DNA of 64,000 bases from Marixanthomonas spongiae (GCF_003095375.1 NZ_QEHR01000004.1:62001-126000); one strand, 5' to 3'. Counted from the first letter of the stretch, positions 21,255 to 48,104 are shown. Numbers and translations are program-made. The notes: generated from the letters alone by a model not told the origin.

Positions 21255-22256
21255 CTATTTTTTCTCCAATATATGCAAATATTCAACGGTTGCATTGGCT
21301 TTATGGTTTCGGTTTTCGGTTTTATCGGCTTTAAAGCGTTGGTATTGCTTTGTTTCTAAACTGTACTTCCCAAAACGTTTCATTATGGTTTCCACCTCAT
21401 CCCGGCTCATTAGTCCTTCGTTGTTGTAACTTAAAAAAATGTGGTCGAACTGGGCGTTTTCAATCAATTCGGTGAACGATTGCAGTACCTCTCCTTTTTT
21501 GCAATAATCGCTTTTGTAATACTCCCGAAGGCCGGTTTTCCCTTTAGGCACAAAGGTATCGTATTTTGCAATAGTATTGAGCAGATGATAGTTGGCACCG
21601 TATTGCCGCGCGTTGTAGGGTGGGTCTAAGTATAAAATATCGCCTTCAATTTCCGTAATGAGTTGGTTGCTGTCTTTTTGAAATACTTGGTGTGAATGTT
21701 CTGTTTTCTGAAACACTGCTGGTTTAATTATCATTTTTTTTGCCGCGGAAGCTTTTATTTTTTTTAAGAATGCGCCATAAACCGAAGCGGTGTTCGCCAC
21801 CTTATCGGCACTTTCCAATAACGAAGCCAAGAGAAAGTAATATTGGTTTTTATCTATTTCTGAAGCATTGCGCCAAACTTCAATTTGTTGGCGGGCGGCG
21901 TCTATTTTCTGTCCGTTTTCCGAAGTGAAATACAGCCGTCTTGCTTTTCCACCTTCAGAATAATTATCGAAAACAAATCCTTTTTGGGGTTTTAGGTCGT
22001 TCAATTGAGAAAGCAACATTTCAGAAGAAGCTATTTCAGTATGGTTACCAATATAATTCCTGTTCAACACATAGCTGTAAAACTCCACATCGTTGGCAAT
22101 TATTTGCTTTACGTGGGTTTTAAAGGTGCGGCCTACAATCCCGGTTCCGGCGAAGAGGTCGCAGAAAGTTTTTTGGGACAAATCACTTCCGCAGACCGAG
22201 GTGACGGTGTCGAAAATAAAGGAAGATAGTTTATGTTTAGAGCCTATGTAATTCAT
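21255..22256 (-). CDS. DNA N6-adenine methyltransferase, D12 class (candidate type II modification enzyme)
   Basis: 333 residues from the ATG at 22256. The AdoMet-binding motif I is FCDLFAGTGIVG at residues 31-42, and catalytic motif IV is D211-P-P-Y214. The opening NYIGSKHKLSSFI is typical of D12-class modification enzymes. The ATG overlaps the TGA of the upstream nuclease-like gene (ATGA), which strongly suggests a coupled restriction-modification pair. Target sequence cannot be read from the protein. Expected action: methylation of adenine in a short recognition site to protect host DNA. Confidence 0.88.
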   Translation of the reverse strand: MNYIGSKHKLSSFIFDTVTSVCGSDLSQKTFCDLFAGTGIVGRTFKTHVKQIIANDVEFYSYVLNRNYIGNHTEIASSEMLLSQLNDLKPQKGFVFDNYSEGGKARRLYFTSENGQKIDAARQQIEVWRNASEIDKNQYYFLLASLLESADKVANTASVYGAFLKKIKASAAKKMIIKPAVFQKTEHSHQVFQKDSNQLITEIEGDILYLDPPYNARQYGANYHLLNTIAKYDTFVPKGKTGLREYYKSDYCKKGEVLQSFTELIENAQFDHIFLSYNNEGLMSRDEVETIMKRFGKYSLETKQYQRFKADKTENRNHKANATVEYLHILEKK

Positions 22257-22897
22257 GTTGTCACCCAAATAATTGCACTTAACGCTTGTGAATTGTCTGC
22301 AAAAGTAAGGGAATGTAGCTTGTTAGGATTGAAATTGGAAACATATTTTTCTATTTCGGCTTTAAGCAAGGAAAGATTGGCTTTCAGCTTCCAATGCTCC
22401 CCGTTTTTATCAAAAACCACAATGAACAAGCGGTTTTTTAAGTGATGTCGTTGTTGTATGCTTTGATTATCATACAACCACTCAATCAATTCTTTTTCAT
22501 GTGTTTTTGCATACGCCCAAGACTTTTTAAACTGCTTGGGGAACACCGTGGTTTTATGGTCAAACGGGATGTTTTGTATGCTAAAATCGACCAAGCGGTC
22601 TTTTGGATTATCTGTTGGGGTTACTTGGGTTAAGTTTGTGAAAATATGCTCCACAGCAGTAGCGCTCCAAAAGTTGTACCAGCGGTTTATGGTGTAATTG
22701 AAAAGGTCGCGTTTGTTTAAGTTATGTACCCTAACCACCTTGGCCATTTTTGGCATCAATGCCTCCCAAGTCTCCGTTCTGTATATAAAGTTGGTATAAC
22801 CGTCCCACAAATTGTTTTGTTTACGACCCCATACATACGGATACTGTAAGCGCTTTTGCAGTTCTGCTTCTAATGCTTTAAGGTTTAAAGTTTTCAT
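22253..22897 (-). CDS. Candidate type II restriction endonuclease, PD-(D/E)XK-like
   Basis: 214 residues, not matched to a family I know. Residues 102-115 read LVDFSIQNIPFDHK, giving D104 and D113-x-K115 with the spacing of a PD-(D/E)XK nuclease core; E83 in the preceding helix (TAVEHIF) could complete the site. No membrane segment. It is coupled at both ends by four-base ATGA overlaps: to the upstream DUF6427 gene and to the downstream adenine methyltransferase gene. That context is the main reason for calling it a restriction enzyme. It could instead be a nuclease-fold protein of another function. Confidence 0.65.
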   Translation of the reverse strand: MKTLNLKALEAELQKRLQYPYVWGRKQNNLWDGYTNFIYRTETWEALMPKMAKVVRVHNLNKRDLFNYTINRWYNFWSATAVEHIFTNLTQVTPTDNPKDRLVDFSIQNIPFDHKTTVFPKQFKKSWAYAKTHEKELIEWLYDNQSIQQRHHLKNRLFIVVFDKNGEHWKLKANLSLLKAEIEKYVSNFNPNKLHSLTFADNSQALSAIIWVTT

Positions 22898-34357: not shown

Positions 34358-34401
34358 CTATGGAGTATCTATGGGGCATCTATGAGGTGCCTATGGGCGT
34401 G
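34358..34401. repeat. 11-base tandem repeat, about four copies, over the wecG-like stop codon
   Basis: Successive units CTATGGAGTAT, CTATGGGGCAT, CTATGAGGTGC, CTATGGGCGTG. The stop codon of the transferase is in the fourth unit (34391-34393). Confidence 0.65.
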
Positions 34402-35158
34402 AGTTTTCTTTAGCGCTGCCATTAAAAAACTTCTCCTTAAAAACCAGCATAATAAACTTGGTATTACCCACTAAATACCGTTTCCACATACGTTTTGGTT
34501 CTTGCAGGAAGCGGTAAAACCATTCGAGGCCGGATTTTTGCATCCATTGCGGGGCGCGTTTTATTTTGCCAGCAAAGACATCGAAACTGCCACCAACGCC
34601 CATGATGAAATTAACTTTGGAAAGTGCTTTTTTATATTTGTGAAGAAAATTTTCCTTTTTGGGAGATGTTATGGCTACAAATAGCATTTGGGCACCAGAA
34701 TCAACAATGTCCTTAACAATATCAGGCTCATCTTCTTCCTGAAAATAACCATTTCTGTAGCCTGCAATAATAGATGGGCTGTATTTTTCTTTATAAATAT
34801 CAACCAGTTTTGAAACAACCTCATCTTTTGCACCAAGAAGATAGATTTTATACTTTTTTTTATGTGCCAGTTCTATTAGGTTTGCCATTAAATCTGGGCC
34901 AGCTACACGTTCCTTTAACGGTACGCCCAAAAATTTTGACGCCCAGACCACTGCTTGTCCATCTACATTAACGATGTCGGCGCTATTAATACTTTTGCGA
35001 AGGTCATTATCTTTTTGCAATGAAACCAACACTGAGGCATTTACCGCCGCATGATGCAGTTGCCTGTTCTCGACAATGGCCTGCTCTACCAAATCCAGTG
35101 TATCTCGCATGGAAAGGTTGTGAATATTGGTGTTTAAGAAACTTATTTTAGGGCTCAT
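34391..35158 (-). CDS. WecG/TagA/CpsF-family glycosyltransferase
   Basis: 255 residues of GT26. Signatures: VNVDGQAVVWASKFLGVPLKERVAGPDLM (in two parts), KIYLLGAKDEVV, AITSPKKENFLHKYK and GVGGSFDVFAGKIKRAPQWMQKSGLEWFYRFLQEPKR at the C-terminus. Family members transfer N-acetylmannosamine or its uronate to a lipid-linked acceptor on the inner face of the membrane, which fits the wecB gene in the same locus. Confidence 0.92.
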   Translation of the reverse strand: MSPKISFLNTNIHNLSMRDTLDLVEQAIVENRQLHHAAVNASVLVSLQKDNDLRKSINSADIVNVDGQAVVWASKFLGVPLKERVAGPDLMANLIELAHKKKYKIYLLGAKDEVVSKLVDIYKEKYSPSIIAGYRNGYFQEEDEPDIVKDIVDSGAQMLFVAITSPKKENFLHKYKKALSKVNFIMGVGGSFDVFAGKIKRAPQWMQKSGLEWFYRFLQEPKRMWKRYLVGNTKFIMLVFKEKFFNGSAKENSRP

Positions 35159-36040: not shown

Positions 36041-37273
36041 TTATTCATGAAGTTTTTTTCTGCTATCAATCTTGTTTTTATACAGGTAAAATGCTAATGT
36101 AAAATATAAAAGCCAAAAGTATGTAGAAGAATGCGGTAATTCTAAAACAACATTGAAACTTGCCCAAATCGCCACTCCCACTACTGCCAGTAGTAAAAAC
36201 TTAATTAAATTATTTTTTACTTGCAACGGTCCATAAAAGATTTTTCTAATTGGATAAAAAAGCAATAAAGTCCACCCCCCTAAATGATATAACATAGTTA
36301 TAAATGAATTGTGGGGAGGGACAAGGTAAATACTTTCCGGTCTTTTAAATACTGAAACAAAACTGTTTACTTGTTGAGCGACTTCTGCGGACAGATATGG
36401 GACACCAAAACCATTGCCATATATAATACTGAAGTTTTCCGTGATTTTTGTTAGCAATTTATTCCAATAAAAAAGCCTTGCATCAGCATTTCCATCTGTA
36501 AATGATGCTACGAAAAACCATAATGCCATACAGCTCAATATTGCAAATGTTGATATTAAAATCTTGATTTTTAGAGATGCACTTAAAAAATAGAAAAATA
36601 AAAAAATAAGTATCACAGCCAAATAAGCAGAGTCGTGGCCAAAGCTCAGTGAAACTATCAATAACAATAAAAAGACCCCTATTTTTATATAACTTTTTAG
36701 AAATACAAGACCCAAAGCTGTTGCAGCCATGACCGAGGGAACGGTTAAAGGCGAAAAATAATTGCGTTTCAAGAAGGGGTTTTCTCCGTCACCCAAAAAA
36801 ATATAAAATACATATCCCAATTGTAACATGACCGCTAAAATGGCTATCGTCACTATTGTTTGTATTAAAATTTGCAATCCGTTTTTAAGCCCTGCTACTG
36901 CCCTAAATATAAAATAAGATTGAATAAGGTAACCAAACACCATAAATTGCCTAAGGTATATGTATAAATCACCCTCTGGATGGAATTTAAATATAATTGA
37001 GATTCCTAAATAAATTAATGAAATCAATCCTAATATCTCAATAGACTTTAACCTAAAGCCTGATTTAAACGTTATGGAAAACAAAAATGTAACTAAAAGG
37101 ATTACATCATGGTAATATAGGTGAGAGTAAAATGCACTTTTCGTATACGCCCTGCCTAAAAACAAAAGAAGCAGTAAATCAATGAGGATAAGCCCAATAA
37201 AAGCTTTTTCTTTTAAAGTTAAAGAAAGGTAATTAGCTTTAAAAGAAGCTACATTAAACATACTTTGTTTCAT
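36041..37273 (-). CDS. O-antigen polymerase-like membrane protein (Wzy type), copy 2
   Basis: About 410 residues from the ATG at 37273; a TTG eight codons upstream is a less likely start. Ten or more membrane helices. The long loop carries YGNGFGVPYLS and, before the last helices, PPHNSFITMLYHLGGWTLLLF, the His-Asn motif seen in Wzy/WaaL proteins. Much more AT-rich than the core genes. Likely polymerises repeat units on the periplasmic face. Confidence 0.78.
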   Translation of the reverse strand: MKQSMFNVASFKANYLSLTLKEKAFIGLILIDLLLLLFLGRAYTKSAFYSHLYYHDVILLVTFLFSITFKSGFRLKSIEILGLISLIYLGISIIFKFHPEGDLYIYLRQFMVFGYLIQSYFIFRAVAGLKNGLQILIQTIVTIAILAVMLQLGYVFYIFLGDGENPFLKRNYFSPLTVPSVMAATALGLVFLKSYIKIGVFLLLLIVSLSFGHDSAYLAVILIFLFFYFLSASLKIKILISTFAILSCMALWFFVASFTDGNADARLFYWNKLLTKITENFSIIYGNGFGVPYLSAEVAQQVNSFVSVFKRPESIYLVPPHNSFITMLYHLGGWTLLLFYPIRKIFYGPLQVKNNLIKFLLLAVVGVAIWASFNVVLELPHSSTYFWLLYFTLAFYLYKNKIDSRKKLHE

Positions 37274-37310
37274 TGTTTGCAAAGACCCTTTATTCAAATC
37301 AAATATTTGG

Positions 37311-37389: not shown

Positions 37390-39261
37390 TTAAATACTAC
37401 AATTACCATCTATTATGTCTTGTTGGGTGGGATTGTAACCATTATTAGAGACATCATAAGTTCCAACATAACCATTGGATATAAGATTGGTGATTCCACA
37501 AAAATCCCTTAATTCAACGTTGCCATATATTATTAGCTCTTCTACACTATATAAGCTAGAAAGCCAGTCAAGATTAACAAGGTCGCTTCTAAAACCGAAA
37601 CCGCTTATCCTTAACCTTTCTGTAACCAAACCTAAATTTTTCATGCTTATTGTAGAAAGAGCACTAGATGCATCTATATCTAATACTCCTATCTGGGTAA
37701 TATTATCTGCGATAAACGTTTCTAAATTATTATTGTTAAATAAATGAATATCAAACACTTCAGATATATTTTCAATATTGATATCACTAATATTATCACA
37801 ACTAACAACATATAAAGATCCTTCTATTATTGATATATTATTTATGGGCAAGTCGGTTAAACTGGAATTATTTTCGAACCTAACATGTTTCGCTCTAGTC
37901 ATATTACCAAAATATACTTCAGCTAAGGAATTATTTCCATTGATAAAGAATGATGTGGGTTCTGCCCTATCCTGTAGGTTCTCCAAATTTAAAACCGAAA
38001 CTCGTGATCCCCTAAGCGTTAAGCTCTTTAAATCTGAAAGAATAGGAAGCCCCAGCGTAGTAAGTTGGTCGTTGTGTGTTATTTCTAAATCTTCTGCTTT
38101 AATAAGGCTATTTGCTTCTATTTTTTCCAACAATGGATTGTCTTTTATCTCTAAATTTCCTGCTATAGTAAGATTATTTACTTCTATTTCCCTTAAACTT
38201 CGATTACCAAATATTGTAATATTGCCATTTAATTGGGTTAAATTTTTTAAAGCAATAGAAGCAATAGCAGTACTGCTAAAAGAAAACTTATCTTCAACAG
38301 TTGTTAAGCCGTCTAGGTTTATCGATGATAATTTCTCAACAATTATCTTACCAGCTTTGGTAATACTTTTTAAATTTACATCAAGATCTAAACGGTTATC
38401 AATAATGGTAATTGATATGGGTTCTGATGGGGTTTGTATATTTTCAAAATTTATACTTGTTAGCTGTGTATTTTCAATGTGCAATGTTTTCAAGCTCGTT
38501 AAGTTATCTGCCTTGAGAGATCTTAAAGCTACGTTGCGAACAAAAGAAAAAGTACCATTGATTTTTTTTAGGTTTTCAAGGTTTAAATTAGATAGCTTAT
38601 TGTTCTCAATTAAATACAAATGATCTATTTCTTCAATATTAGCTATATTTAGCTGTGTAAGTGAATAACAATTATTCAATGTGAACGAACCCACCTTAGT
38701 TGCGCCAATAGTGATAGTTTCAAAACGAGAGTCAGTAGATTCAAAACCTCCAAGAACTGTTACATTTTCAAAATTTAAATTAACAACCCTAGTATTAATG
38801 AATTTTACATGCTCCCGGATTGCTGTTAAATTGTAAAGCCCTTCAATATTCCTAAGAGATTCATTATCATCTAGTTCAATAGTGTTTATAGCTGTAACAC
38901 CACTAAAACTATTTAGGTTTTCAAGTATTGGGTTTTTGCTTATCAATAAGTTATCAATGTCTGTTAGGTTACCAAGGCCGTCAAGACTTGTTAAAACGGT
39001 ATTATTTTGGATATTCAGGGTATTAACCTTTTTAAGGGTGCTTAATGAGCTTAGATCATCGATGTCATTTTGGTCAATGCAGCCTATACAGATTGTGCCT
39101 TCTACACTGGTGTATCCCATTTTGCCAAAATCTTCTACTTCTTTTTGAGTACGCAATGTTACATCGCCCACATAATTATTTGTAGCGTTTGTGGGATCAT
39201 CATCTTTATTACAGGCTATAACCAATAATAATAGTAGTGAAAATAATAGTGTTTTTTTCAT
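37390..39261 (-). CDS. Leucine-rich-repeat surface lipoprotein
   Basis: 623 residues. Signal peptide ends at lipobox VIAC (C17), then N-K-D-D-D, which matches the lipoprotein export signal described in Capnocytophaga (x-K-D/E-D/E-x directly after the cysteine), so surface display is likely. The rest is an array of irregular leucine-rich repeats of about 20-24 residues (LTSLDGLGNLTDIDNLLIS and many similar), ending in the NNGYNPTQQDIIDGNCS tail common in Bacteroidetes LRR proteins. It has no T9SS sorting domain. It follows the FG-GAP protein gene by 20 bases, so the two are probably co-expressed. Role likely adhesion or binding; unproved. Confidence 0.85.
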   Translation of the reverse strand: MKKTLLFSLLLLLVIACNKDDDPTNATNNYVGDVTLRTQKEVEDFGKMGYTSVEGTICIGCIDQNDIDDLSSLSTLKKVNTLNIQNNTVLTSLDGLGNLTDIDNLLISKNPILENLNSFSGVTAINTIELDDNESLRNIEGLYNLTAIREHVKFINTRVVNLNFENVTVLGGFESTDSRFETITIGATKVGSFTLNNCYSLTQLNIANIEEIDHLYLIENNKLSNLNLENLKKINGTFSFVRNVALRSLKADNLTSLKTLHIENTQLTSINFENIQTPSEPISITIIDNRLDLDVNLKSITKAGKIIVEKLSSINLDGLTTVEDKFSFSSTAIASIALKNLTQLNGNITIFGNRSLREIEVNNLTIAGNLEIKDNPLLEKIEANSLIKAEDLEITHNDQLTTLGLPILSDLKSLTLRGSRVSVLNLENLQDRAEPTSFFINGNNSLAEVYFGNMTRAKHVRFENNSSLTDLPINNISIIEGSLYVVSCDNISDINIENISEVFDIHLFNNNNLETFIADNITQIGVLDIDASSALSTISMKNLGLVTERLRISGFGFRSDLVNLDWLSSLYSVEELIIYGNVELRDFCGITNLISNGYVGTYDVSNNGYNPTQQDIIDGNCSI

Positions 39262-39281
39262 TGAAAATTATCTTTTATATA

Positions 39282-41759
39282 CTATTCAAGTATTGCTTTT
39301 TTTACATCTACTTTTGAAGTAGAATCTATTAATTTTACAAAATAGAGTCCTGTGGTTAACTTGTGTAAGTCTATAAGTTCAATACCTTCTTGATTATCTT
39401 CCTGCATTACAAGCTGTCCTAATTTGTTATAAACGCTAACACTTACAATTTTTGTCTCAGAATGTATACTTACAAAACCATTTGACGGGTTCGGGTAGAG
39501 CGCTAAACTTGATATTTCATTTTCAATTTCGTTCACACTTAATGGCCCAGCATTCTCATACCAATCTATTGATGCTCCGTACCGATTGGCTGACAATACA
39601 TCCATTTTATTATCTCCATTAATATCGGCTGCAAACACAGAATTGGCACCATATCTATCTGTTGTTATAATACGTTGAGGGCCAAAATTTCCTTGACCAT
39701 CCGTGTTTTTATAATATGCCACTTTTGAGTCATTACGCGATGCCGACATTACATCCAAATAACCATCGCCGTCCAAATCATCTGCATATACTGAAGATGC
39801 GCCATCGGCATTTGTTGTTATCGTTTTTGGAGGGCCAAAATTTCCCAAGCCATCTGTATTTTCATACCATACAATTTCGTCATCTTCAAATAAAGCTGCC
39901 ATAACATCAACATCACCATCATTATCAAGATCGGCAGCAGAAACTGAAGATGCCTCATTTGCAACAGATGAGATGATTTTTTGGTTGCTAAAACTCCCTA
40001 GACCATCTGTATTCTCATACCAAGCTACTTTGTTGTCAAGTAATGAAGCGGAGAGTATATCTATATCACCATCATTGTCTATATCAATTGCAAATACAGA
40101 TTTAGCACCACTTGCTTCATTGGTTATAAGATTCGGTCCCCCAAAATTGCCCAAACCGTCTAAATTTTCATACCAAATAACTTTACCAGTAATAAAACTG
40201 TAATATGACGCTACTACATCAAGATCGTTATCTCCATCAATATCTACTGCATAAACAGATGTTGGATGGTCATCACTACCATTTAAAGAAATTGCACGTA
40301 TACTACTAAAATGACCCAATCCATCAGTGTTTTCATACCAGCCTATTTTCCCAAGAGTTACATATGAGGAACAGCCAAGAACATCTATATCACCATCACC
40401 GTCAATATCACCGGTATGAACAGAATTAGTAAGAAGAAGATTGGACGTTATGTTATGAGCAAACCTAAAATTACCCTGCCCATCTGCATTTTCGTACCAA
40501 GCGAGTTTATCATCACCATAAGATGCTGATAGGACATCTATATCGTTATCTCCATCAATATCTACTGCATACACGGCAAAAGCGTCTTCCACCCGGGCAG
40601 AAACAATTATACGGTCGCCAAAATCACCCAAGCCATCCGTATTTTCGTACCATGCCAAACTAAAGTTGCCAAAATTAATAGAAAACGCATCAATATCATC
40701 ATCTCCATCTAAATCTGAAGCAAATACATTTCCGATGTACGTGTTGTTTAATGTGGTTATTATTTGCTCCGGCCCAAAAGTTCCCAACCCATCTGTGTTT
40801 TCATGCCAAACTACCATTCCCGTTAAAGTAGGATATGTAATAGAAATAAGTACATCAAGATCTCCATCGCCGTCTATATCTGTAGGAAAAGCCGATTTTG
40901 ATGAAGCAGGATTTGAGATTGCTTGTTTTGATCCAAATGTTCCCAATCCATCGGTATTTTCAAACCAGACTGTTTCATTTACCCCAGTACTAGGAGTCCA
41001 AGTAATACTAACAATATCCATATCACCATCGCCATCTATATCGGCAGGATAAACTTTGGTGGTAAATCTATCTGTTATGGATTGTGGTAACCCAAAATCA
41101 CCTTGTCCTGTCGTATTTTCGAACCAAGCCACGTATAAACCGCCTGAGCCAGATATTATATCCATATCGCCATCGCCATCTAAATCTGCAGCAGAAACTG
41201 AATTTGCTGAACTTGCTACATAAGTTAATACTTGTTGTGGCCCAAAATTTCCAAGGCCATCCAAATTTTCATGCCACGCAACTTTTGCTCCCCCAGCAGA
41301 TAAAACATCAAGATCACCATCTCCATCTAAATCAGCCGTATAAATAGCTGCCGGAAGACCTGTTGTTATTGTTCGTATAGGACTAAAATTCCCTAGACCA
41401 TCGATATTTTCAACCCATGCTAAAATGTTGTTGCCACTATCGCTAAAAAGTATATCCATATCACCATCGCCATCTAAATCGGCAGCATGTAAAGCAGGTG
41501 ATTCATCAATTTCAGATGTTATAACTTTTAAAACTGCAAATTTTCCATGACCATCGGCATTTTCATACCAGCCTATAACATCATTAGCACTTATTATCAT
41601 ATCTTGATCGCTGTCTCCATCAAGATCAGCACTTATTACAACCCTTGCACCAGTCACAGAGGTGGTTTTATCAATAATTACATGGTTCTGAAAATCAATT
41701 TGTGCGTAGTTAGTAAAGTATAGAAAAAATGTGATGATTAAAAAAATATATATTTTCAT
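39282..41759 (-). CDS. Secreted FG-GAP/VCBS-repeat protein with T9SS sorting domain
   Basis: 825 residues from the ATG at 41759, where a signal peptide begins (KIYIFLIITFFLYFTNYAQ). I count 14 repeats of about 50-55 residues, each with an acidic calcium-loop pattern (DxDGDGDxD) and a W-Y/F-E-N-x-D-G-x-G-x-F segment; the last repeat is slightly diverged. These fold as beta-propeller blades, giving two seven-bladed propellers or similar. The last 75 or so residues are a type A T9SS C-terminal domain (YPNPSNGFVSIHS... YFVKLID). It should be exported through the type IX system and attached to the surface. Its place inside a glycan locus is unusual. Confidence 0.92.
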   Translation of the reverse strand: MKIYIFLIITFFLYFTNYAQIDFQNHVIIDKTTSVTGARVVISADLDGDSDQDMIISANDVIGWYENADGHGKFAVLKVITSEIDESPALHAADLDGDGDMDILFSDSGNNILAWVENIDGLGNFSPIRTITTGLPAAIYTADLDGDGDLDVLSAGGAKVAWHENLDGLGNFGPQQVLTYVASSANSVSAADLDGDGDMDIISGSGGLYVAWFENTTGQGDFGLPQSITDRFTTKVYPADIDGDGDMDIVSITWTPSTGVNETVWFENTDGLGTFGSKQAISNPASSKSAFPTDIDGDGDLDVLISITYPTLTGMVVWHENTDGLGTFGPEQIITTLNNTYIGNVFASDLDGDDDIDAFSINFGNFSLAWYENTDGLGDFGDRIIVSARVEDAFAVYAVDIDGDNDIDVLSASYGDDKLAWYENADGQGNFRFAHNITSNLLLTNSVHTGDIDGDGDIDVLGCSSYVTLGKIGWYENTDGLGHFSSIRAISLNGSDDHPTSVYAVDIDGDNDLDVVASYYSFITGKVIWYENLDGLGNFGGPNLITNEASGAKSVFAIDIDNDGDIDILSASLLDNKVAWYENTDGLGSFSNQKIISSVANEASSVSAADLDNDGDVDVMAALFEDDEIVWYENTDGLGNFGPPKTITTNADGASSVYADDLDGDGYLDVMSASRNDSKVAYYKNTDGQGNFGPQRIITTDRYGANSVFAADINGDNKMDVLSANRYGASIDWYENAGPLSVNEIENEISSLALYPNPSNGFVSIHSETKIVSVSVYNKLGQLVMQEDNQEGIELIDLHKLTTGLYFVKLIDSTSKVDVKKAILE

Positions 41760-41914
41760 AATATTGGAATTGGAATGAAACTTCAAGTAATCTAAATATA
41801 CAGAAAATATTTTCTTTAGATTTTAGAAAGACAAGATAAGGGTATTGAGATCTTACTTAAGACAAGAAATCGCTTCTTCACTCTTAATCTTGTTTAAGTG
41901 TTGATATTTAACGG

Positions 41915-43018
41915 CTAATGTTTAGCCAAGATATCATCAATTATAGTTTCGAAATTTTGAATGAACATTTCTTCTGTATATTTTTCATTAAATTCCTTCT
42001 TATTGTTTTCTTTAATAGATTTTAGCTTTTCTGGATTTTGAATTAAGTATTTCATCCTTTCCGCTAAAGCCTCTATATCCTTTTGAGGCACCAAGAAACC
42101 ATTTTTATTTTCTTGCACCATACTGGGTATGGCACCATTATCTGTAGATAAAACCACCAAACCTGTTTGGTATGCTTCGAGAATGGACAATGGAAAGCAT
42201 TCATTTTTATAATAGGTAGGAAGTACAAACACATCTGATTTTAAAAGATGTTCATATTTTTTATCACTGTATGCTGGCCCAAATAACTTGACGTTTATCA
42301 ACTTGTTTTGACTAATGTATTCTTCAAGCTGCTCTATGGTAACATCAGAGGATGGACCTACAATATGGGCTTTAAATTGATTGTCGTACTCTTTTAAACT
42401 TCTAATGGCCTGAAGAAACACTAAAATTCCTTTGTCTTTCATTAAGTTTGACAAATAGATAAACGTAGGAATGCTATTGCTTCTTTTGGCATCAAGCCTA
42501 TTCATATCAATATGCTTGATTCCATTAGGTAAAAAATATGGGGTTTTAGGGTAAATCTGCTTTATATCATCCTTAAGAGCTTCGGCCAATTGTATAACCT
42601 CAACGTTTTTAAAAACGAATTTATATATCTTTCTTTTTAGTTTATTGTTTATTTCATTCTTGATGCCTTTTCCGTGTAGATGAAATACAATATTTTTTCT
42701 GAAAATTTTTAAGATACATACCGAAAATGCGTCTTTATAAAATGCGAAACCGAGTGGTGAAAGCGTAAAATAGACAAGGTCATATTTATTAGACAGGAGT
42801 TTTCCCATCAATTTAAAATATATTGAACATGCTCCAAAAATTTTACCTAGCGAGAAGTTTCCTAATCCTTCCATTTTTTTTGACAATTGGATAGGAATGA
42901 CATCTATATGGTATTTATCGTTCAACAGCTCACTTTCTGCCAGTAGTTTGTTCATCAAGGAAGCTCCGTGAACCGGTGGTGGCAATTGCACCAAAAATAA
43001 AATCTTATTCTTTTTCAT
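41915..43018 (-). CDS. Glycosyltransferase family 4
   Basis: 367 residues, GT-B fold. The N-terminus has LFLVQLPPPVHGASLMNKLL; the donor site is in DVFVLPTYYKNECFPLSILEAYQTGLVVLSTDNG with the E-x7-E pattern. The start overlaps the end of the upstream polymerase-like gene by 14 bases. AT-rich like its neighbours. Confidence 0.88.
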   Translation of the reverse strand: MKKNKILFLVQLPPPVHGASLMNKLLAESELLNDKYHIDVIPIQLSKKMEGLGNFSLGKIFGACSIYFKLMGKLLSNKYDLVYFTLSPLGFAFYKDAFSVCILKIFRKNIVFHLHGKGIKNEINNKLKRKIYKFVFKNVEVIQLAEALKDDIKQIYPKTPYFLPNGIKHIDMNRLDAKRSNSIPTFIYLSNLMKDKGILVFLQAIRSLKEYDNQFKAHIVGPSSDVTIEQLEEYISQNKLINVKLFGPAYSDKKYEHLLKSDVFVLPTYYKNECFPLSILEAYQTGLVVLSTDNGAIPSMVQENKNGFLVPQKDIEALAERMKYLIQNPEKLKSIKENNKKEFNEKYTEEMFIQNFETIIDDILAKH

Positions 43019-44234
43019 TTTTTAATAAAACTAAATAATAGAGGCTGGTAAAAAACACAATTCCTTTATTGACCCCTAAAATATTTTCTGTTATACCGCA
43101 AATGGCGATTAATGCAAGTATGGTAAACAGTAAAAAATCATTTCGCTCAAAGCTAATATATAACCCTGAGTCTAAAAAGAAAAGATAGCATAACACACCT
43201 AAAACACCTAATTCAACCAAGTAGTTGATATATTCATTATGGGTGTTGAATTTTTTTTGGTAACCAATAGTGAAATTTTTTTTCTTATACATCTCATTCA
43301 ATCTGTTTTGGGTACACCCCATTCCGCTGCCAAAAATCACATTGTTTTCTTTTACTACCGCAAGTGCAGCTTCCCATTTTGCCAACCGGATGTTTAATGA
43401 GTTCCAGTTGGTGCTGTGAATATCATCTTCTATAGTATATTCAAAAACGTGGCCTTTAAACACTTTTGCTTTGTTTAAAAACAACGTTGCCGGAAGCAAA
43501 ATTGCGAGTGCCAACAGCCCTAATCTTATATAATTTAACTTGTCTTTGTACGTGAAAAGGAAAAACACCAGTAATACAATAAAGTAAGCAACTAGCACCG
43601 AAAAAGACTGAAGTAGGTATATCCCCACTGCTAAAAAAGCCAATAGGATACCGATGTAGATTTTTCCTTTTTTTTCGCAATTTTTAAACTTGTTGAGAAA
43701 TATACTGGAGGAAAAAACTAAATACATCCCAAAATATACCGCATGAAGGTTTAATGGTTTGCTAAATCTATGGTATAGAAAGAAATTTTCGTTTACTAAA
43801 TTTTCAGGATTGAATATATATAAAGAACCTGTGCTCCATACATTATAGGTTGCCATTAACAAGCAATAAAGCAAAGCCAATAAACATACATAGGCAAAGA
43901 CATTGAGCAGTTTTTTAATTTGGCTTCTGTTTATATGCAATGTAGGCACAAAAAGGAAGAACAGTATAAATGAAAGGGTTTTCTCCAAGCCTTTGAGTCC
44001 ATTTGCCAAATCGCAAGAATAAAGTAATGAACCTACAGAAAGAACAAATAGAACAGGAAAAAACAGCCACGTAGTTTTTTTTATAAGTTTAACCCTTTTA
44101 ATGTTTAAGAGGCTAAAAAATATAAAAATAAAAATAGCGATATTGTTAAGGATCATGGGCAACGGAATAGTAGCAAGAACTATCCCGAATGAAACATAAT
44201 GTAGTCTATCAATTAAGTTGCTGTTCCACCTCAT
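43005..44234 (-). CDS. O-antigen ligase/polymerase-like membrane protein, copy 3
   Basis: 409 residues, about 11 membrane helices. The loop contains FGSGMGCTQNRLNEMYKK and KKFNTHNEYINYLVELGVLGVLCYLFF, the same His-Asn-containing element as copies 1 and 2. It overlaps the next polymerase-like gene by 26 bases and the GT4 gene by 14, so three genes are read as one coupled unit. Confidence 0.82.
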   Translation of the reverse strand: MRWNSNLIDRLHYVSFGIVLATIPLPMILNNIAIFIFIFFSLLNIKRVKLIKKTTWLFFPVLFVLSVGSLLYSCDLANGLKGLEKTLSFILFFLFVPTLHINRSQIKKLLNVFAYVCLLALLYCLLMATYNVWSTGSLYIFNPENLVNENFFLYHRFSKPLNLHAVYFGMYLVFSSSIFLNKFKNCEKKGKIYIGILLAFLAVGIYLLQSFSVLVAYFIVLLVFFLFTYKDKLNYIRLGLLALAILLPATLFLNKAKVFKGHVFEYTIEDDIHSTNWNSLNIRLAKWEAALAVVKENNVIFGSGMGCTQNRLNEMYKKKNFTIGYQKKFNTHNEYINYLVELGVLGVLCYLFFLDSGLYISFERNDFLLFTILALIAICGITENILGVNKGIVFFTSLYYLVLLKNEKE

Positions 44235-45477
44235 GCTCTTTAATGTTCAGGTTAATAAACAATTCCAAAAACAATATCACCGAAAAGTAATCAAACCAAT
44301 AATCCAGAACAAAAAAGCCCAATATTGAAAGCATAAGTATTCTGCCATAAGTCATTTTATACCAATTTTTTATCATATAAAACATATATAGCCCAAATAA
44401 GATAAGGCCCATTAAACCAAACTCACCAATTATTTGGTTGTAAAATGAAAAAGGTTGATTGTGGGTGCCATCTTTATATGCGATTGACAATATTTTTTTG
44501 TTCCATAAAGGGAAATGATTTTTTGAAAATGCCTCTGATTTATACTCCCAATCTTTAGGAAACCAATCTGTATAATCACCTGCCGTTAAAAATGCTGTTC
44601 TAGACGAAAATTTCCCCGCTCCTTCACCATAAATAAAGCTTTTTGGGCTACTTGTCCAATTTTCGAGGGTTTCCCAAAAAGAGATCATTTTTCTTGGTGG
44701 ATCTACATTACTGCTAAGGTTTTCTGTAAGTATAAGTTTTACGTAACTAATATTAGTAGGAGTTACAACTGTCAAAATCAAAAAAACTATCACAATACTA
44801 GAAACAATTTTAATTTTAGTTTTTAGCCCGAAAGTAAAAAAGACATATATTGATGCAATAATCGAGAATATGAATACGCCGCTCATATACGTTGACAACA
44901 GCATAGCAATTATGGCGAAAACAACCTTACGATTTCTTTTATACGCATAAAAAACAGTGTAAAAAGACATAATTATCATAGAGATCGATGAGTTCGAGAA
45001 AACACCTTTTAAATGATCTCCGGTTGATTGCCCATAAGAATACATTGTACTTGCAAAAGGGTTGAGCGTTTTAGTTGCAAAAATTACACCTCCAAGTTGT
45101 ACTATAATTATAATGAAGTTTATAATAAAAAAAATGTCTATTAACTTCTTAGTCTTGTCTATATCAAAATTTATTACAATGGTCTTTATCACTAAATAGG
45201 CGAGTAAAGCCAAAAACCAAAATAAGAATGCTATTAGGGAATTAAGATTATAGTTTAAGGAATAGCTGTCATCAAAAAATAAGAGAAACTGTGTGGCCGA
45301 CAAGAAGCATAAACCTGAATAAAAAAGAAACCGTTCATCAATAAGGATTTTATTTTTGCTTAAAAGCAAAATAATAATACCAAAAAAACCCAAAAGAAAA
45401 AGCTGAAATACGAGGTTGCCTGATAATAAGAATATTACCAAAAGTAAATAATACTGAATAGTATTTTTGCTCAACAT
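44209..45477 (-). CDS. O-antigen polymerase-like membrane protein, copy 4
   Basis: 422 residues, about 10-12 membrane helices and a long loop with FIYGEGAGKFSSRTAF and KDGTHNQPFSFYNQIIGEFGLMGLILF. The His-Asn element places it with Wzy-type proteins. Very AT-rich. One of the four Wzy/WaaL-like proteins probably joins the finished glycan to its acceptor; sequence alone does not say which. Confidence 0.78.
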   Translation of the reverse strand: MLSKNTIQYYLLLVIFLLSGNLVFQLFLLGFFGIIILLLSKNKILIDERFLFYSGLCFLSATQFLLFFDDSYSLNYNLNSLIAFLFWFLALLAYLVIKTIVINFDIDKTKKLIDIFFIINFIIIIVQLGGVIFATKTLNPFASTMYSYGQSTGDHLKGVFSNSSISMIIMSFYTVFYAYKRNRKVVFAIIAMLLSTYMSGVFIFSIIASIYVFFTFGLKTKIKIVSSIVIVFLILTVVTPTNISYVKLILTENLSSNVDPPRKMISFWETLENWTSSPKSFIYGEGAGKFSSRTAFLTAGDYTDWFPKDWEYKSEAFSKNHFPLWNKKILSIAYKDGTHNQPFSFYNQIIGEFGLMGLILFGLYMFYMIKNWYKMTYGRILMLSILGFFVLDYWFDYFSVILFLELFINLNIKEHEVEQQLN

Positions 45478-45498: not shown

Positions 45499-46794
45499 TT
45501 AGTCCAACTTATTAACCTCTAAATTAATTTCGTTGAATTTTTCAATAAACCTATCAGTTCTATTATTTAAGGTCTTTCTTATTTCTACTTTATTTTCGAT
45601 TATAAAATCTACATTATCAATCAACTCTTTGGCAGTTAAGTTGTGAATATCCAACAAAAGATTTTTTTGCCCGAGTTCATCAACAACACCTTGCGTTTTA
45701 AAGCCTTGATATCTAATTGGTAATATTGGTGTAGCAACACTTGCAGCCAAAATACACGAGTGCAAACGTGTTCCTATTAATAGTTCACATTTTTTATATA
45801 ACGCCATCATTTCGTAAACAGATAAGTCCTTTGTATAAAATTCTACTTTTACATTTTTAGAAATTAAGGCTTTATTAACAGTTTTAATTATATCAATATC
45901 GCTTTCACCATGATGTTTTACAGTAACTTGTGGAATAAAGATGGGGGTTAACCCATAATTTTCATGTGCATAAATACACGTTTCAATTATTGATTTTATG
46001 TAATTCTCCTTTGCTTGTACTGGATTTTCTGCTTCGGGAAAATTCCAGTTAACCATGGTAATACCTAAATATTTTTTATTAGAAGACAACTTTATTGATA
46101 AGGTATCATCTATCTTCTTTTTTAGATAGAAAGCCAAGTCTGGAATAACCTTCGTTTTAAAGTCCAAATCGTACTTTTCAATAAAATTATAACTCACTCT
46201 TTCTCTTACAAAAATCTTATCACAGTACGCTAAGTACTTTGCAGCTATTTTTTCGCTTTTTTCGCTCGCAAAACCACCAAAACTCTGTCCCATAATTATA
46301 ACTTTCTTTTTCAAAAGATGGGCTGTTTTAATTGGTTGAAGGGTTCGCCACAAAAAAAGATTACCTCTTAAATCCTCCCTTTCGTTGTAAATAAACTGTC
46401 CCCCTTTTATTAAAATTAGATCTGACTTTTTAATGTCTTGGATAGCCTGAAACTGCTTTCCTCCCAAAATTCTACCTAAAACAGAGCTGAATAAAGATAA
46501 TTTTAATTGAACCACTTCTTTCGTCAAACGGTAAACCGCTAAGAGGTCATTTATTTTTGATTTGTTTTCAGAGGTATAAGGAGTGGGAAGAACACCCTGT
46601 TTTATTTCAATATCAAATTTAGACATAAACCTATTATGAAACAGGAATGCTTCACGATCCTTTTCTCTAAATGTTGAGTGTAATATTATTTTTGAATTTG
46701 GGTACTTAGCTTTTACTATTAAGAAACAAGCCATTGTGATGGCCAAGTCTCCCTTGTTTGAGTCAGAATACCCGTGAGTTATTAAAATATTCAT
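45499..46794 (-). CDS. Polysaccharide pyruvyl transferase family protein
   Basis: 431 residues. Conserved pieces of the family: ILITHGYSDSNKGDLAITMACFLIVKAKYP at the start, KKVIIMGQSFGGF, SDLILIKGGQFIY and LLIGTRLHSCILAASVATPILPIRYQGFK near the end. Such enzymes add pyruvate ketals from phosphoenolpyruvate, giving the glycan a negative charge; some relatives have other roles. The ATG shares one base with the stop of wzx. Confidence 0.88.
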   Translation of the reverse strand: MNILITHGYSDSNKGDLAITMACFLIVKAKYPNSKIILHSTFREKDREAFLFHNRFMSKFDIEIKQGVLPTPYTSENKSKINDLLAVYRLTKEVVQLKLSLFSSVLGRILGGKQFQAIQDIKKSDLILIKGGQFIYNEREDLRGNLFLWRTLQPIKTAHLLKKKVIIMGQSFGGFASEKSEKIAAKYLAYCDKIFVRERVSYNFIEKYDLDFKTKVIPDLAFYLKKKIDDTLSIKLSSNKKYLGITMVNWNFPEAENPVQAKENYIKSIIETCIYAHENYGLTPIFIPQVTVKHHGESDIDIIKTVNKALISKNVKVEFYTKDLSVYEMMALYKKCELLIGTRLHSCILAASVATPILPIRYQGFKTQGVVDELGQKNLLLDIHNLTAKELIDNVDFIIENKVEIRKTLNNRTDRFIEKFNEINLEVNKLD

Positions 46795-48104
46795 TAAATT
46801 ACATTTAGTTTGTTCCTATTTGTTACAAGTGTTAAAACTCCCATAACAAACAAAAAGGTAATATATATAAGCTTACTTGATTCTATAAAGGAATTTATGA
46901 CAATAAATAATGCTGAAATTAACAAAAATGAAGATATTGACTTAAAGCGATTAAGTAAAAACTTTTTTTCACTGATTGCAACAACATTTAAAAAGGATAA
47001 TAGAAATTCTCCAAAAAGGATACTCAACGCAATCAAATACAATTGATTGCCAAAAGTATAGTAAAATACAATACTTGCAAGTATTGTACTCCCAGCTGCC
47101 AAAATAATATTTCTAGAGTATTCTCTGTCTTTATCATCCAATAACAGCCTGGCTCCAGTACTTGTTGTAAAAGATGAAACAAACCCTGCGAGGCCAATAA
47201 TAAAAAAGGTGTTTTGATAAGAAGAGAAGTCTTCGCTAAAAAAAACAGGGGTAATTACATCTAAAAAGAAGGCTAAAGAAACAAACAAGATTAAGCCCCC
47301 AATTGTAGCCATTTGATCAACCTTGAGAGCTACTGCTACTTTAGTGAGATCCTTATAAAAACTCTGAACTATTATTTGTCTAACACCTTTGAATATCATA
47401 TAAAATTTTAAGATTATATATATAATGGCTATTGTTGAAGAGACATAAAAAAACGATATAACGTTTACTAAACTAATTCCTATAAAAAGAAACAAAACAC
47501 TGGCAATACCCAATCCTAAATGAAGCCAATATTTTTTTAAATTTTTGAGGTTTGGTTTAATAAAATATGAGACTTTAAGGCTACGAGATACTATAATTCC
47601 AGCAATAATATAAGATATAATAATACTAACAACATAAATTATAATTAATTGTTCTCTCCAATAAATAGACACTATAAACAGCGTTGTGGCTGGGACTATT
47701 ACTCTAATTAAAGAAACAAAAGCCCCTAATTCTGGTTTTCCCCTTCCGTAAAGTGCATAATCACCATTCAAAGCAAAAATTGGAGAAAAAAGAAATAAAA
47801 TGTTCTTGGTTACAATAAAACCACTTAAACTAAAAATTATTAAAAACAAACATAAGGTAAGTCTTGCGGATTGAGTATCATAATACTCTTTTTTCCAGTC
47901 ATCCATTAATGCAATTTTTCTTGTTGCTGATAACTGGATGCCAAAAGAAACTATTGAAACAATCAATATGATGAGACTATCTATTTCGCCTATAACAGAT
48001 ATAGTATCATTAGATATATTTGTTGACAAATATTTAAGAATGAAAATATTCGACAAATGGGCTACCCCAGTAAATAATCCTACTATTGCAAGTCTTTTTA
48101 TCAT
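46794..48104 (-). CDS. wzx: Oligosaccharide flippase (Wzx-like)
   Basis: 436 residues, about 12 membrane helices, MOP superfamily. First helix region AIVGLFTGVAHLSNIFILKYL. It should move the lipid-linked repeat unit to the periplasmic face for the Wzy-type polymerases encoded next to it. Low GC, poor similarity to the other flippase in this window by eye. Confidence 0.85.
   Translation of the reverse strand: MIKRLAIVGLFTGVAHLSNIFILKYLSTNISNDTISVIGEIDSLIILIVSIVSFGIQLSATRKIALMDDWKKEYYDTQSARLTLCLFLIIFSLSGFIVTKNILFLFSPIFALNGDYALYGRGKPELGAFVSLIRVIVPATTLFIVSIYWREQLIIIYVVSIIISYIIAGIIVSRSLKVSYFIKPNLKNLKKYWLHLGLGIASVLFLFIGISLVNVISFFYVSSTIAIIYIILKFYMIFKGVRQIIVQSFYKDLTKVAVALKVDQMATIGGLILFVSLAFFLDVITPVFFSEDFSSYQNTFFIIGLAGFVSSFTTSTGARLLLDDKDREYSRNIILAAGSTILASIVFYYTFGNQLYLIALSILFGEFLLSFLNVVAISEKKFLLNRFKSISSFLLISALFIVINSFIESSKLIYITFLFVMGVLTLVTNRNKLNVI

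Follow-up and report, generated by a model that had tools for sequence, protein, structure and literature searches.

FG-GAP proteins of the Bacteroidota that serve as type A cargo of the type IX secretion system (T9SS; TIGR04183, PF13517) carry a signal peptide, FG-GAP repeats and a C-terminal sorting domain, and the LRR or BspA-type lipoproteins of the Bacteroidota (PF13306, PF01030) combine a lipobox and export signal with an LRR solenoid and receptor-L-like end units. The two neighboring genes described here encode one protein of each build. The FG-GAP protein has several relatives in its own genome, and its gene is distinctive only by its position inside a glycan cassette. The LRR protein, of 623 aa, differs from the described lipoproteins of its type in being found only in a glycan cassette and in having apparently been exchanged between species, with a dS far below that of its neighbors. 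In Capnocytophaga, the optimal lipoprotein export signal has been defined experimentally as C-X-K-(D/E)2-X, and the consensus of F. johnsoniae is SDDFE (PMC5080379). The predicted signal of the LRR protein, C-N-K-D-D-D, is like the former and unlike the latter.

The locus itself resembles the serotype-variable O-antigen/exopolysaccharide cassettes, such as those of the wzy-based serotypes of Flavobacterium psychrophilum: a low-GC Wzx/Wzy cassette lies between conserved rml genes and genes of the ugd/purD side. The cassette studied here, known from its genes, differs in that a surface lipoprotein is linked to it and that one of its slots varies in content.

Organization of the locus

The window is the whole stretch of Marixanthomonas spongiae DNA that was analyzed, 64,000 nucleotides in length (NZ_QEHR01000004.1:62001-126000). 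Its relevant features are the following.

34391..35158, minus strand: WecG/TagA/CpsF glycosyltransferase, conserved cassette end
36041..37297, minus strand: Wzy-like polytopic membrane protein (WzyA), cassette marker; no Pfam match; relatives in other exopolysaccharide loci
37390..39261, minus strand: LRR (BspA/receptor-L type) predicted surface lipoprotein, 623 aa; lipobox C17 followed by NKDDD; cassette-linked and, it appears, recently exchanged
39262..41811, no strand: variable slot, from the end of homology past the glycosyltransferase to the LRR start; contents differ in 3/3 cassettes
39282..41759, minus strand: FG-GAP protein with 14 repeats, signal peptide and type A T9SS sorting domain; strain-specific occupant of the slot
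41915..43018, minus strand: group 1 glycosyltransferase (GT4), upstream neighbor
43005..44234, minus strand: Wzy_C/O-antigen ligase-like protein
44209..45477, minus strand: second Wzy-like membrane protein, cassette member; no Pfam match
45499..46794, minus strand: polysaccharide pyruvyl transferase
46794..48104, minus strand: Wzx-like membrane protein; no Pfam match; putative flippase

The two ORFs singled out by an earlier, sequence-only reading of the window were found again on the minus strand. In the sense of transcription the order is GT4, FG-GAP, LRR and WzyA, with spacings of ~155, 20 and ~92 bases, respectively. The sequence-only reading had placed the two genes between Wzy-type genes, which is correct on the LRR side, where WzyA adjoins, but not on the other, where the immediate neighbor is GT4 and the Wzy_C protein comes only after it. 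The GC content is ~30-37% across a block at roughly 35.5 to 48 kb of the window, which is bounded by the conserved rmlABCD genes on one side and by wecG, ugd, an epimerase and a WbaP-type sugar transferase on the other. The low-GC block forms the variable cassette of what is a surface polysaccharide locus of the Wzx/Wzy type. An Rfam search of 30-52 kb of the window gave no match, and a promoter scan was uninformative (37 sites vs 35.4 by chance). Elsewhere in the window, at 21255-22897, a D12-class adenine DNA methyltransferase gene adjoins one for a 214-aa protein without a Pfam match. An additional 156-aa ORF lies close to the matching position in UBA3356, a metagenome assembly of the same genus, which suggests that the two genomes differ here in a restriction-modification region.

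Slot contents in three cassettes

In UBA3356 the locus is collinear with the window gene by gene, and Ulvibacter litoralis, of another genus, has the same cassette. The LRR gene stands between GT4 and WzyA in both, as it does in the window, and the FG-GAP gene is missing from both. Homology between UBA3356 and the window ends ~100 bases past GT4 and restarts a few bases ahead of the point where the LRR reading frame begins. The slot is ~300 bases long in UBA3356 and holds a 189-bp element bearing 23-nt inverted ends; in U. litoralis it is occupied by the gene, on the opposite strand, for an unrelated 613-aa surface lipoprotein with an Ig-like domain and DUF285 repeats. No two of the three cassettes thus share the same slot contents, so that the pair is not conserved, and the absence of the FG-GAP gene from two of the three rules out a conserved two-gene surface module. 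The expectation that related loci would keep the pair was thus not borne out.

The 189-bp element (L064:9738-9926) also contains an inner palindrome of the GTTGAGCGCAGCCGAAACC type. Palindromes of this type recur at other gene ends in the genus and its relatives (L052, L058, L070, L073, L080).

The FG-GAP protein and its relatives

Counted from its ATG, the FG-GAP product has 825 aa. It contains exactly 14 DxDxDGDxD loops, 48-55 residues apart, and matches FG-GAP_3 with an E value of 3.8e-83 (13 FG-GAP_3 stretches). Its C-terminus matches Por_Secre_tail (E 2.1e-13) and scores 43 bits against TIGR04183, above the curated cut-off of 23, in agreement with its earlier description as a 14-repeat protein with a T9SS domain. 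The AlphaFold model, built from the single sequence without an alignment, has a pLDDT of 32. In a PDB search the only matches were weak ones, against the sorting domain and against FG-GAP-like regions of large proteins of the TcdB/YenB type, and these say nothing specific on function.

Relatives of the FG-GAP gene in the window genome and in the genus adjoin dnaK, mevalonate genes and other unrelated genes (neighbors were named by reading translations by eye), and none adjoins an LRR gene in the loci read. With its relatives in such unrelated places and the gene itself absent from two of three cassette copies, the proposed link between the pair and the glycan is not supported. The window genome of 3.4 Mb encodes 73 type A sorting domains, so that ~0.64 would be expected per 30 kb, and it encodes SprA of the T9SS translocon (2894 bits). 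Given 73 type A cargo genes in this genome, the placement of one of them in a glycan locus needs no explanation. We also considered a foreign origin of the gene, as its low GC3 might indicate; this was ruled out because relatives elsewhere have a GC3 of 0.16-0.30 too. Low GC3 is a trait of the family and hence no sign of cassette origin. By its distribution, the FG-GAP gene is an incidental occupant of the slot, a member of a dispersed family whose product is predicted to be exported by the ordinary T9SS.

A recurrent pair of another kind was seen among the shorter FG-GAP genes. Twice in the window genome and once in UBA3356, a gene for an FG-GAP protein of 456-465 aa directly adjoins one for an exported protein of ~505 aa (L052:10193-13167, L053:7994-10943, L058:7605-10484).

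The LRR lipoprotein

The LRR protein matches LRR_5 in a profile search (E 2.3e-8) and has receptor-L-like end units. Its lipobox, VIAC, is followed by NKDDD, which is invariant in the three orthologues and fits the optimal Capnocytophaga signal given above; the export signal that had been read from the window sequence is thereby upheld. The AlphaFold model is a long solenoid with a mean pLDDT of 83. Foldseek matched the model to LRR proteins at low TM-scores, and a PDB search returned internalin B-type LRRs, with nothing function-specific. A 478-aa LRR relative is encoded elsewhere in the window's own genome, and the plasmids searched held no LRR match. In the literature searched, we found no report of LRR lipoproteins within exopolysaccharide loci.

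Relatives of the protein form an expanded surface-protein array in U. litoralis, where seven consecutive tandem genes for LRR lipoproteins lie outside any glycan locus (L071:6678-16337). LRR proteins with a T9SS tail occur in exopolysaccharide loci of two other genera (L124 in G311 and L152 in G185); they are apparently not orthologues of the window protein.

Co-occurrence of the LRR gene with the cassette

Among 397 family genomes, close WzyA homologues (E<1e-200) were found in the window genome, UBA3356 and U. litoralis only, and full-length LRR orthologues were found in the same three genomes and no others. The chance of drawing the same three of 397 genomes is about 1 in 10 million, although the true significance is smaller because the carriers are related; with only three known carriers, two of them in one genus, the co-occurrence does not amount to three independent events. 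A second draw of 326 order-wide genomes, in which UBA3356 and U. litoralis are not listed, had both WzyA and the LRR gene in the window genome only. The suggested co-occurrence with a wzy gene is therefore seen for the LRR gene, present in 3/3 WzyA carriers, and fails for the FG-GAP gene, present in 1/3. Likewise, of the surface module said to be tied to the glycan, there remains the LRR lipoprotein, which among the genomes sampled is confined to WzyA carriers, and not the pair.

Over aligned residues, the LRR protein is 91% identical to that of UBA3356 and 64% identical to that of U. litoralis, which is shorter and lacks a block of repeats of ~130 residues. The UBA3356 gene is frameshifted near its 3' end; this genome may be able to do without the protein, or the frameshift may be an assembly error.

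Divergence of the LRR gene and its neighbors

We compared dS for 32 genes between the window and UBA3356. The LRR gene had the lowest value of the 32 pairs, 0.129 (bootstrap 0.09-0.17), as well as the highest dN/dS, 0.29. The cassette genes from WzyA to Wzx had dS values of 0.54-1.04, and the flanking genes ranged from 1.1 to saturated. Nucleotide identity along the LRR gene was mostly 93-99%, with a few 100-base steps at 85-90% and 78-82% at the 3' edge. Low GC3 could be part of the cause of the low dS; the Wzx gene, with a similar GC3 (0.227 against 0.245 for LRR) and yet a dS of 0.65, argues against a composition effect. These tiers are read most simply as an exchange of the LRR allele between the lineages at a time when the other cassette genes had already diverged. 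The GT4 and WzyA genes of the window are about equally close to the copies of U. litoralis and UBA3356, which indicates that this part of the cassette crossed genera.

Identity to U. litoralis is 82-89% for GT4 and WzyA and 66-69% for the upstream cassette genes, a mosaic whose boundary falls between the genes for GT4 and Wzy_C.

Secreted proteins in exopolysaccharide loci

We read more than 40 exopolysaccharide loci anchored on WecG or WzyA, many of which hold a lipoprotein or secreted protein, and 32 of them could be scored. By crude signal-peptide patterns, 24/333 genes (7.2%) were secreted in these loci vs 39/280 (13.9%) in the background, which was collected via LRR and FG-GAP baits that were removed before counting; 20/32 loci vs 80/109 background windows had a secreted gene. 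No enrichment of secreted proteins was thus found in the 32 exopolysaccharide loci; the frequency is, if anything, lower. In five genera (G071, G261, G146, G395, G310), a lipoprotein of 252-261 aa lies between wzy-like genes; some of these proteins have similar C-terminal ends, and they may represent a common accessory protein of exopolysaccharide loci.

The common flavobacterial O-glycosylation motif is D(S/T)(A/I/L/V/M/T). The two window proteins have 1 and 0 such sequons, as compared with 5.9 and 2.8 in shuffles, and general O-glycosylation was rejected on this count.

Discussion

We favor, at a probability of about 60%, the interpretation that the window encodes two independent surface proteins, of which the LRR lipoprotein is tied to the cassette and separately exchanged and the FG-GAP protein is incidental. 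Gene content, slot variation, co-occurrence and the tiers of dS are read directly from the genomes compared; we infer surface display, a binding partner and selection. The LRR protein looks like a solenoid lipoprotein, predicted to be exposed at the surface, that is linked to the cassette and has alleles that move independently. It would be exported by Sec and lipidated at C17, and its CNKDDD signal would flip it to the outer face of the outer membrane, where it would present a long LRR beta-solenoid at the cell surface. The gene would be inherited and transferred with the cassette, and its alleles would also be swapped separately by recombination between cassettes. Such separate exchange would be expected if the protein is exposed at the surface and its variants are under selection from whatever the cell surface meets, candidates being the partner glycan, a phage, a grazer or a substrate. 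Most likely the protein would work at the surface together with the cassette polymer, in polymer retention or like-cell binding. Polymer holding, like-to-like adhesion and a surface met by phages or grazers would all fit. The FG-GAP protein would be a propeller protein with calcium loops that leaves the cell by the ordinary T9SS, and one copy of a dispersed family that may have landed in a slot tolerating different surface genes.

One could envision instead a functional surface pair, for example a T9SS adhesin with a lipoprotein partner, co-transcribed, dedicated to the glycan and recently assembled in this lineage. The narrow gap between the genes on one strand, in which no terminator was found, and the predicted surface location of both products are consistent with this idea. 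However, the other two cassettes have no FG-GAP gene, so that the LRR protein lacks such a partner in UBA3356 and Ulvibacter, and FG-GAP relatives never adjoin LRR genes in the loci read; we regard such a pair as improbable. An alternative that concerns the FG-GAP protein is covalent anchoring of the cargo to the glycan of the locus by a PorU-type sortase, in the manner of P. gingivalis, where linkage of cargo to A-LPS is established (PMC8545088). The type A domain, the presence of the T9SS and the nearby Wzy-type locus would agree with it, but the gene is not conserved with the cassette. Moreover, all 73 type A cargo genes would require the same anchor, and the position of one of them beside the locus would then not matter. 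We consider this explanation highly improbable.

It could also be that both genes are incidental in a hypervariable, AT-rich island and that the linkage of LRR to the cassette has no functional meaning and comes from the common descent of the three loci sampled. The lack of enrichment of secreted genes in exopolysaccharide loci and the frameshift in UBA3356 speak for this, whereas the LRR gene has kept its place through a cross-genus transfer and its dS points to exchange apart from its neighbors. On balance, we think this somewhat unlikely. A bolder form of our interpretation, which we put forward tentatively and hold to be doubtful, is that the LRR protein is a dedicated outer-surface partner of the polymer, acting as a retention factor or as a like-to-like adhesin, that selection acts jointly on the cassette and the LRR allele although the two recombine separately, and that changes of glycan type and protein receptor on one cell are linked. 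In that case, the slot between GT4 and LRR would serve for the trading of additional surface proteins.

On the interpretation that we favor, a tempting gene pair splits into an incidental part, the FG-GAP gene, and a meaningful part, the LRR gene. If the LRR link holds, the glycan cassette brings along a surface lipoprotein of its own, and a protein exposed on the same surface could be exchanged together with the glycan type. This would matter for the tie between the host range of phages and the surface identity of marine flavobacteria, which could then be tested in named strains, Ulvibacter litoralis DSM 16195 among them.
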